From contig NZ_WPCF01000008.1 of assembly GCF_009741975.1 (NCBI RefSeq), positions 1 through 44,636 on the forward strand: DNA of 44,636 nucleotides. Direction: 5' to 3'. This stretch comes from Halobacterium sp. CBA1126. Its GTDB lineage: Archaea; Halobacteriota; Halobacteria; Halobacteriales; Halobacteriaceae. The notes under the pieces were generated by a model. It made no database searches. It was not told the origin of the DNA and saw only the letters and a program-made list of their open reading frames with translations. The translations under genes were made by a program, and so were the position numbers. Positions within the stretch are counted from its first letter, which is position 1; every line of letters begins with the position of its first letter. Shown here one piece after another: positions 16,798 to 22,863 of the stretch.

Positions 16798-16874
16798 TTC
16801 GATGGGGTTTTACGTAACCCGGCACTCGGATGGGATGCGAACGACGTGAGGTGGCTCGGTGACCCCGACGCCAC
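16798..16874 (+). promoter_or_regulatory. rRNA operon promoter module A (most upstream)
   Basis: TTCGATGGGG followed by TTTTAC (16808), then TGCGAACGACG exactly 28 bases later (16836), the expected initiation region. A hairpin follows at 16851-16874 (GTGGC-TCGG / CCGA-c-GCCAC), then TGATTGACGC. It is the most diverged of the four modules. Confidence 0.65.
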
Positions 16875-16927
16875 TGATTGACGCCTCGACGCCCCCGCGT
16901 CGAACCCCTCGCCTTCGGCGAGTCTGG

Positions 16928-17004
16928 TTCGACGCCCTTAAGTGATACCGGGCGCTTCGGAAGAATGCGAACGACGATGAAGTCACTCGGGTTTCCCGGG
17001 TGAC
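16928..17004 (+). promoter_or_regulatory. rRNA operon promoter module B
   Basis: TTCGACGCCC with TATA-like TTAAGT at 16938; TGCGAACGACG at 16966, 28 bases downstream. Hairpin GTCACTCGGG/CCCGGGTGAC at 16982-17004 with a TTT loop, then TGACGC. It lies 130 bases from module A. Confidence 0.8.
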
Positions 17005-17058
17005 TGACGCACGCTTCCGACGCCCGCTCCGTGCTCGATCGGGCTCTCACGAGTCCGG

Positions 17059-17136
17059 TTCGATGCCCTTAAGTAATAACGGGGGATACGAGGTAATGCG
17101 TACGATGATGAGGTCGTCCGGGTCTCTCCGGACGAC
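17059..17136 (+). promoter_or_regulatory. rRNA operon promoter module C
   Basis: TTCGATGCCC with TTAAGT at 17069; TGCGTACGATG at 17097, 28 bases downstream. Perfect 9-bp hairpin GTCGTCCGG/CCGGACGAC at 17113-17136, then TGATGC. It lies 131 bases from module B. Confidence 0.8.
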
Positions 17137-17190
17137 TGATGCATTACCTCGGTCCCGTTTCGGGGTTCGGACTCGCTCTCACGAGCGCGG

Positions 17191-17261
17191 TTCGATGCCC
17201 TTAAGTAATAACGGGGCGTCGGAGGAAATGCGAACGTCGTCTCGGACCGAGCGAAGTCCGA
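17191..17261 (+). promoter_or_regulatory. rRNA operon promoter module D (proximal)
   Basis: TTCGATGCCC with TTAAGT at 17201; TGCGAACGTCG at 17229, 28 bases downstream. Hairpin TCGGAC/GTCCGA at 17242-17261. It lies 132 bases from module C and about 245 bases before mature 16S. Confidence 0.8.
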
Positions 17262-17348
17262 TGGGTTTATGACCCGTCGTGGACTACGTTCAGGTCCGAA
17301 GGAATGAGGATTCCACCCCTGCGGTCCGCCGTACAGATGGAATCTGAT

Positions 17349-17381
17349 GTTAGCCTTGATGGTTTGGTGACATCCAACTGG
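17349..17381 (+). other. 5' strand of the 16S precursor BHB processing stem
   Basis: GTTAGCCTTGATGGTTT (17 bp outer helix), GGTG (4-bp central helix), ACA (3-base bulge), TCCAACTGG (9-bp inner helix). It pairs perfectly with 18998-19030, where the opposite bulge is TAC. This is a canonical bulge-helix-bulge, the EndA cleavage motif. Between it and 16S lie four small hairpins (about 17380-17470), such as GGAACAC/GTGTTCC. Confidence 0.9.
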
Positions 17382-17473
17382 CCACGGCGCTTTGTCGTGG
17401 CTATGAGGAACACTTTGTGTTCCCGCCAAACCAGGACTTTTAGTTCTGGTCGCTGGGGCTTGACCCCAGCAAA

Positions 17474-18946
<1,473 letters not shown>

Positions 18947-19055: not shown

Positions 19056-19127
19056 GGGCCCATAGCTCAGTGGTAGAGTGCCTCCTTTGCAAGGAGGATG
19101 CCCTGGGTTCGAATCCCAGTGGGTCCA
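19056..19127 (+). tRNA. tRNA-Ala (anticodon TGC)
   Basis: 72 bases in the 16S-23S spacer, the usual haloarchaeal position. Acceptor GGGCCCA pairs with TGGGTCC (one G-U). Anticodon stem CCTCC/GGAGG encloses CTTTGCAAG, giving anticodon TGC. The T arm is CTGGG-TTCGAAT-CCCAG. Discriminator A; no encoded CCA. Confidence 0.96.
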
Positions 19128-19320: not shown

Positions 19321-19495
19321 CGTGGTCGAGTACCGACTGTTGGTCACATCCGTGACTCAACAGCGCTCACCCACAGTGGTGAGCATCGTCGACTGTTCTA
19401 CAGTCGACATTCATCGTCGTTGGCTTCACCGCCAACAACCCTCGACCACTTCGTGTGGTTGAGTACCATCGTCAGCTGCTCTGCAGCTGACATCC
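19311..19495 (+). repeat. String of seven local hairpins in the 23S leader
   Basis: Successive stems: ACTCGACC/GGTCGAGT, CTGTTG-GTCAC/GTGAC-t-CAACAG, GCTCACC/GGTGAGC, GTCGACTGT/ACAGTCGAC, GTTGGC/GCCAAC, CTCGACCAC/GTGGTTGAG and GTCAGCTGC/GCAGCTGAC, mostly 6-11 bp with short loops. No gene lies here. The first hairpin uses the same bases as the BHB inner helix. Confidence 0.65.
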
Positions 19496-19498
19496 AAC

Positions 19499-22415
<2,917 letters not shown>

Positions 22416-22540: not shown

Positions 22541-22662
22541 TTAAGGCGGCCATAGCGGCGGGGCAACTCCCGTACCCATCCCGAACACGGAAGATAAGCC
22601 CGCCTGCGTTCCGGTCAGTACTGGAGTGCGCGAGCCTCTGGGAAATCCGGTTCGCCGCCTGC
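22541..22662 (+). rRNA. rrf: 5S ribosomal RNA
   Basis: About 122 bases, TTAAGGCGGCCATAGCGGCG to TTCGCCGCCTGCC. GGCGGC pairs with GCCGCC as the terminal helix. The conserved CCCGTACCCATCCCGAACAC and GGAAGATAAGCCCGCC segments match haloarchaeal 5S. Confidence 0.97.
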
Positions 22663-22680
22663 CAATCATACTTCATTCAG

Positions 22681-22787: not shown

Positions 22788-22863
22788 GCCAAGGTGGCAG
22801 AGTTCGGCCTAACGCGGCGGCCTGCAGAGCCGCTCATCGCCGGTTCAAATCCGGCCCTTGGCT
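22788..22863 (+). tRNA. tRNA-Cys (anticodon GCA)
   Basis: 76 bases. Acceptor GCCAAGG/CCTTGGC; anticodon stem GCGGC/GCCGC around CTGCAGA (anticodon GCA); T arm GCCGG-TTCAAAT-CCGGC; discriminator T (U). It lies distal to 5S, a common haloarchaeal arrangement, and ends directly in a T6 run. Confidence 0.95.

Follow-up and report, generated by a model that had tools for sequence, protein, structure and literature searches.

The window, a stretch of 44,636 nucleotides of contig NZ_WPCF01000008.1 from Halobacterium sp. CBA1126, contains an rRNA operon with one tRNA gene between 16S and 23S and another after 5S (Table 1). Four promoter modules had been described in an earlier note on this DNA, and rechecking of the coordinates placed all of them upstream of 16S, with the same spacings of 130, 131 and 132 bases and, in each case, the same 28 bases from the TATA-like box to TGCG. 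All four share the layout of TTCGA, five bases, TATA-like box, 28 bases and TGCG, and the same modules occupy the same places in related Halobacterium genomes. In Halobacterium salinarum (leader L049), we identified five modules at positions -765, -640, -519, -387 and -254 relative to the 16S search pattern, and the module 765 nt upstream of that pattern is the orthologue of module 1. Five rRNA promoters have been reported in H. cutirubrum, where the strongest, P1, is the most upstream and lies about 750 nt from 16S (PMC4983044), which is the place of module 1. The combination of TTCGA and a TATA-like box about 28 bases before TGCG was found in about 350 modules in 141 leaders and in none of the reversed leaders. 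From these results, the four modules are very probably the promoters, in tandem, of the one rRNA operon in an archaeon whose likeness to H. salinarum L049 marks it as Halobacterium-like. Tandem haloarchaeal rRNA promoters have long been known, as the note acknowledged; the RNA element that sits on the modules is the less known part.

Table 1. Features of the rRNA operon and its leader, in positions of the window.
Feature	Position	Strand	Details
Promoter module 1	16798..16839	+	TTCGATGGGG; TATA-like TTTTAC at 16808; initiation TGCG 16836-16839
Module 1 RNA element	16848..16884	+	GA 16848-49; hairpin 16850-16875; GA 16876-77; then TTGACGC
Promoter module 2	16928..16969	+	TTCGACGCCC; TATA-like TTAAGT at 16938; initiation TGCG 16966-16969
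Module 2 RNA element	16950..17025	+	Outer arms 16950-54/17021-25 and 16957-63/17014-20
Module 2 element core		+	Closing stem UGCG 16966-69/CGCA 17008-11; GA 16979-80; GA 17006-07; inner hairpin 16981-17005
Promoter module 3	17059..17100	+	TTCGATGCCC; TATA-like TTAAGT at 17069; initiation TGCG 17097-17100
Module 3 RNA element	17083..17156	+	Outer arms 17083-87/17152-56 and 17089-96/17144-51
Module 3 element core		+	Closing stem TGCG 17097-17100/TGCA 17140-43; GA 17110-11; GA 17138-39; inner hairpin 17112-17137
Promoter module 4 (last strong one)	17191..17232	+	TTCGATGCCC; TATA-like TTAAGT at 17201; initiation TGCG 17229-17232
Module 4 leader	17242..17299	+	TCGGACC 17242-48 can pair with GTCCGA 17256-61 or GGTCCGA 17293-99
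Fifth, weaker promoter-like site	17257..17298	+	TCCGATGGG; TTTATG at about 17266; start-like T at 17295
16S	17474-18946		rRNA operon
tRNA	19056-19127		Between 16S and 23S
23S	19494-22413		rRNA operon
5S	22542-22663		rRNA operon
tRNA	22788-22863		After 5S

The note had proposed that each module carries its own covarying hairpin 13-16 bases after the initiation region. The four hairpins begin 13-15 bases after the T of TGCG. We found a hairpin of the proposed kind in modules 1-3, whereas module 4 carries something different (see below); TGAYGC or TGATTGACGC does follow the hairpin in the three modules that have it. The sequence after TGCG is AACGACGUGA in module 1, AACGACGAUGA in module 2 and UACGAUGAUGA in module 3, and the RNA of this type reads AACGACRUGA-like, then the hairpin, UGA and YGCA. 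Downstream of its hairpin, module 1 has UGAUUGACGC in place of UGA and YGCA (CGC).

Conservation of the hairpin was assessed in alignment A1, which holds 32 internal-type modules of the same family, found with the first, Halobacterium-based matrix and aligned by plain MAFFT without fitting to structure; L138 module 2, an exact duplicate, was omitted. We found that the pairing is kept despite differing sequence, with 96.6% of cells paired, and 46 cells had changed on both sides compared with a shuffled mean of 13.5 (0 of 500 shuffles as high), a count that overstates independent events as many rows are close relatives. Both-side changes occurred at seven pairs, and sliding the partner lowered the pairing to 21-55%. 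Outside the 3b/3n pair, G·U outnumbered A·C by 31 to 1, while the shuffled means were 53 and 23, indicating selection on pairing of the sense-strand RNA. Across the family, a hairpin of at least 7 bp was present in 43 of the 43 Halobacteriaceae modules lying more than 300 nt upstream of 16S, compared with 58% of the same set after one dinucleotide shuffle each; in 42 of the 43, such hairpins started a median of 14 nt after TGCG. Hairpins of the module-1 type are nearly invariant, with TGAGGTGGCYCGG...GCCACTGA in most of the 19 sequences of alignment A2, where the second module of L136 was placed on sight. Leader L134, which repeats H. salinarum L049, was dropped from the later matrix scan and kept in A1-A3, which are without L049. 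Folding energy does not single out the inner hairpins of modules 1-3 (z of -1.1 to -1.3), and the family median z was -1.41 for the post-start stretch and -1.73 for the stretch before the start; by energy alone, the inner hairpin would have gone unnoticed. The inner hairpin is one layer of a larger RNA element in modules 1-3, the structure of which is well supported and the function of which we infer.

The position of the start relative to the hairpin was judged from Haloferax. Modules in the Haloferax prahovense leader (L013) at -302 and -194 correspond to 293 and 185 nt upstream of 16S after correction by a 9-nt offset (16S nt 1 at 17474, search pattern at 17483), and dRNA-Seq starts of Hfx. 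volcanii have been reported 293, 185 and 444 nt upstream of 16S (PMC4983044). These two modules, which the same matrix detected, fall on the first two of the starts, and a third pair is formed by a module at 441 and the reported start at 444. This agreement suggests that the modules start at TGCG or at most one base off. Since the Haloferax modules agree with mapped starts at TGCG, the 5′ ends would lie outside the inner hairpin, which is further downstream; 5′ ends inside the hairpins, which the note had named as evidence against its proposal, are not what these starts indicate.

The inner hairpin is flanked by GA on both sides, the 5′ GA standing before one further, usually G·U, pair. This arrangement was found in 43 of 51 modules, comprising 24 of the 32 internal-type rows in A1 and all 19 module-1-type rows in A2. 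The eight others comprise three with A·A at 2b-2n, three with GG/GA, one with GU/AA and a misaligned row; on the bulged strand, GG occurs in 3 of 32 rows and GU in one. GA is preceded by U in 25 of the 32 A1 rows (by C in 2 and by a gap in 5) and in all 19 A2 rows. An A·A at 2b-2n is a natural kink-turn variant, as in Kt-23, and is still bound by L7Ae (PMC3985660). Modules of the 1-3 type have G·A at 1b-1n and A·G at 2b-2n, and the GA/GA flanks are predicted to form the tandem sheared-pair core of a kink-turn. A standard kink-turn has a three-nucleotide bulge (PMC5061560), while about 9 nt separate UGCG from GA here, with AACGACGAU and UACGAUGAU as the unpaired strands of modules 2 and 3; on the 3′ strand of module 1, additional bases also precede the closing pairs. 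Because of this bulge of about 9 nt instead of 3, we describe the RNA element as kink-turn-like and do not class it as a kink-turn member.

Two further parts of the element had been missed by the earlier note. The YGCA after the hairpin (CGC in module 1) can pair back to the initiation UGCG, and in modules 2 and 3 the pairing extends upstream of the start, over -16 to -1. Folding of 16950-17030 and 17080-17160 gave z values of -5.8 and -5.6, which none of 200 shuffles reached in either case, and both start-spanning helices are retained when the whole read-through leader (16836-17473) is folded to minimum energy. As the arms include pre-start sequence, the complete helix would form only in RNA begun further upstream. 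Module 1 has no stem upstream of its start, and none appeared in the consensus fold of the module-1-type sequences. In A1, 80.5% of cells in the helix from -8 to +4 (outer and closing parts) are paired, compared with 29-46% for slid partners, and 48 double changes were counted against 21.4 in shuffles (0 of 500).

The same contrast between first and middle modules was seen in Halobacteriaceae. The arm-pairing z had a median of -2.57 in middle modules (n=33) and of 0.30 in first modules (n=20), with a p-value of 6.5e-8 that, like the cell counts, overstates independent events owing to the many closely related rows; an upstream control partner gave 0.50 and 0.43, respectively. This test took in the middle modules of L123, L124 (-393), L140 and L141, which were found with the later matrix only and are not in A1. 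Similarly, downstream pairing of the start segment was 0.78 in middle modules against 0.45 with flanks shuffled, and 0.29 against 0.38 in first modules. In genus g4 (L149 and L150), which was not used in the derivation, modules 2 and 3 have the helix and the last module is different, and module 1 of L149 is without the outer stem. There are exceptions. Genus g6 (L142 and L143) has a partial outer stem in the first detected module, and these two modules are included in A1; the second module of L136 is of the module-1 type and has no start-spanning stem; and arm pairing is weak in the middle modules of g2 and g5. Taken together, the predicted start-spanning helix recurs across Halobacteriaceae, with exceptions, and first modules are without it in most genera.

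The leader of module 4 holds an element unlike that of modules 1-3. Its hairpin has no TGA..TGA flanks. The short 6-bp hairpin (17242-17261) competes for the same 5′ strand with a longer pairing to 17293-17299; among the 13 rows of the own genus, out of 18 in all, 5-6 of 6 pairs are retained in the short pairing and 7 of 7 in the long one, and the long pairing is the minimum-energy fold in the last modules of the genus. In family modules near 16S, hairpins occurred about as often as in shuffles (17 of 25, 0.68, against 0.64). We therefore rejected a single hairpin common to all four modules, as module 4 and its orthologues are without the element of modules 1-3; homologous modules lacking the pairing, the other observation that the note had held would count against it, thus do exist in part. 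The two exclusive pairings could act as a folding-order (co-transcriptional) switch before the 16S precursor stem. Their shared letters may also reflect chance or promoter constraint; GTCCGATGGG is also the upstream box of a fifth promoter-like site. This site, which was absent from the note, scored 33 with the matrix at -188, and the corresponding sites in Haloferax fall on the start that dRNA-Seq mapped 185 nt before 16S. It overlaps the module 4 leader, and its start-like T lies inside the 3′ strand of the long pairing.

To describe the distribution of the element beyond the genus, a model of it was run against 293 genomes of the order. The best matches were in the same family, with weak ones outside; in the own genome, three matches had E below 1e-5, all in the rRNA leader, and the next had 0.15. 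The scan of genome contigs covered at least 119 stretches, and one sequence search took in 100 of 120 sources. Outside the family, a hairpin of at least 7 bp was present in 92 of 104 upstream modules, compared with 62% in shuffles, but GA flanks accompanied only 8 of those 92. No overall excess of start-spanning pairing was found outside the family (0.41 against 0.38 shuffled), and a start-spanning stem common to haloarchaea in general was rejected, although individual leaders from other families (L075 and L162) resemble the start-spanning form. We conclude that the post-start hairpin is a haloarchaeal trend and that the GA/GA flanks and start-spanning stem are its Halobacteriaceae form. Being rare or unseen outside the family, the flanks and the stem are not needed for haloarchaeal rRNA synthesis generally.

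Several other structures were noticed in these leaders. In L075, L159 and L162, which belong to other families and have modules about 80 nt apart, the start region pairs with the TCCGACGCCC-like upstream box of the next promoter; the example in L162, 464 nt before the 16S search pattern, has a different geometry and a similar outcome. About 530-585 nt upstream of the search pattern, leaders of Natrinema, Haloterrigena and similar organisms (L010, L074, L077, L103 and the like) have in common a conserved hairpin after the start, ACGTGGC...GCCACGT, which is followed by a second strong hairpin and has no GA flanks. The spacers between modules are strongly structured in the family: at +62 to +118, the median z was -3.9 following first modules and -3.8 following middle ones. 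Within the first spacer of the window, the TTCGA box of the next module pairs with an upstream repeat (16897-16906 with 16926-16935). Traces of recent module duplication were also seen: in L136 the second module is almost a copy of the first, and L007 has two near-identical modules 90 nt apart.

In the element that we propose, the initiation UGCG leads into an unpaired, purine-rich strand with UGA at its end; a covarying hairpin of about 10 bp comes next, and then GA and a YGCA that would pair back to the start. In a transcript from its own promoter, the 5′ end would be secured by a small hairpin of kink-turn-like form. Transcripts from a promoter further upstream would read through modules 2 and 3, where the pre-start RNA would add a clamping helix, so that RNA from any promoter would carry the folded element; such read-through RNA should be abundant because the strongest H. 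cutirubrum promoter is the most upstream (PMC4983044). The element would emerge from RNA polymerase some tens of nucleotides after the start, in the promoter-proximal zone. Once folded, it may hinder loading of a nuclease or an aCPSF1-type termination or decay factor, aid escape of the early elongation complex and shield the long untranslated leader until 16S processing, and a protein of the L7Ae family may hold the GA/GA loop. In Saccharolobus, escape of the elongation complex is reported to be one of the steps at which rRNA synthesis is controlled, and recruitment of aCPSF1 correlates with lower escape (PMC8448881). We tentatively favour, with a probability of roughly 0.4, the reading of the element as packaging for the nascent leader at each start, which would aid early elongation and protection, perhaps via an L7Ae-type protein; the binding of a protein and the effects on elongation and stability are what we infer here. 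A full archaeal counterpart of rrn antitermination, in which L7Ae or L30e would bind the kink-turn-like nascent RNA, early complexes would escape aCPSF1/FttA, rRNA output would be tied to free ribosomal protein and the start-spanning stems at internal promoters would keep read-through RNA folded, seems to us distinctly improbable.

The start-spanning helices might instead be nuclease sites that trim read-through leaders at TGCG, in which case some of the 'promoter' 5′ ends would be cuts. TGCG sits in a stem only in read-through RNA, and haloarchaeal rRNA transcripts are described as rich in processing sites (PMC8303175), both of which fit such processing. However, the modules combine TTCGA with a TATA box at an unvarying distance of 28 bases from TGCG, similar Haloferax modules coincide with TEX-enriched starts (PMC4983044), no bulge-helix-bulge was recognised by eye in the stems, and module 1 has its hairpin with no upstream RNA to trim, so we regard trimming as unlikely. 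An action at the DNA level, with the arms forming an inverted repeat around the start (a cruciform or the site of a dimeric regulator) that affects promoter melting, draws on a different part of the data. In the outer arms upstream of the start, G·U and A·C were equally frequent (15 each) and gave no strand signal, which makes a DNA role conceivable for these arms, and DNA stability around the start is reported to matter for archaeal promoters (PMC8448881). Yet G·U is favoured over A·C in the closing stems as in the inner hairpin, the whole outer helix has G·U 40 to A·C 16, the arm sequence is not conserved, and the conserved GA/GA has no obvious role in DNA; this explanation also appears improbable.

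The structures could also be a by-product of module duplication, the hairpin being a simple aid to early elongation and the outer pairing a functionless relic of GC-rich, repeat-prone sequence. The recent duplications in L136 and L007 are in line with this, the outer stem is confined to one family, and swapped arms still pair fairly well: when arms were exchanged between rows, pairs dropped only from 5.78 to 4.90 of 8, and a row's own arms were best in 11 of 32. Against it, column shuffles and slid controls fall short of the observed outer pairing, first and middle modules contrast in arm pairing, and the outer stem recurs with different letters in genera g1, g4 and g7. We consider a by-product rather unlikely.

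Archaeal rRNA operons must keep polymerase going through a long untranslated leader, and the element is a conserved one at each rRNA transcript start that would form differently in promoter-initiated and read-through RNA. Halobacterium salinarum is genetically tractable and its five modules show the element, which makes it a concrete and cheap test target. Moreover, start sites of tandem promoters may lie within RNA helices, which can confuse 5′-end mapping. The tandem rRNA promoters described for Halobacterium (H. cutirubrum/salinarum; Dennis 1985 as cited in PMC4983044) belong to the same operon and the same module type, and the five promoters of H. cutirubrum, the strongest at about 750 nt, match the five modules of H. 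salinarum L049 between -765 and -254. The passages on these promoters in PMC4983044 make no mention of a hairpin, GA/GA flanks or a start-spanning stem, and the original papers may describe inverted repeats. A word search of the open-access literature, with the 1980s classics outside its scope, gave no account of hairpins after haloarchaeal rRNA starts.

Among known RNAs, the element is like the kink-turns bound by L7Ae (box C/D, U4 and the L7Ae mRNA leader) in its tandem G·A and A·G beside a stem, in the U that is the last bulge nucleotide of most rows and in its A·A 2b-2n variants; it differs from them in the longer unpaired strand before GA and in the GG or GU that some rows have on the bulged strand. 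Archaeal box C/D sRNAs offer another likeness, as AUGAUGA ... CUGA in module 3 matches the C and D box consensus (PMC5539422). However, the element has a hairpin in place of guide sequences, lies within an rRNA leader and has no C′/D′ boxes that we could see, and an Rfam search of the leader gave nothing above the gathering score and only chance-level hits below it (best sR35, E 4.5). For these reasons, the hairpin filling the guide place and the Rfam hits being at chance level, we rejected a C/D guide RNA. As of 2021, no attenuation or antitermination mechanism was known in archaea according to PMC8448881. The likeness to the antitermination signals of bacterial rrn leaders (boxB hairpin, boxA and boxC; PMC10250234) lies in a small hairpin close to the leader's 5′ end that is repeated at successive promoters.
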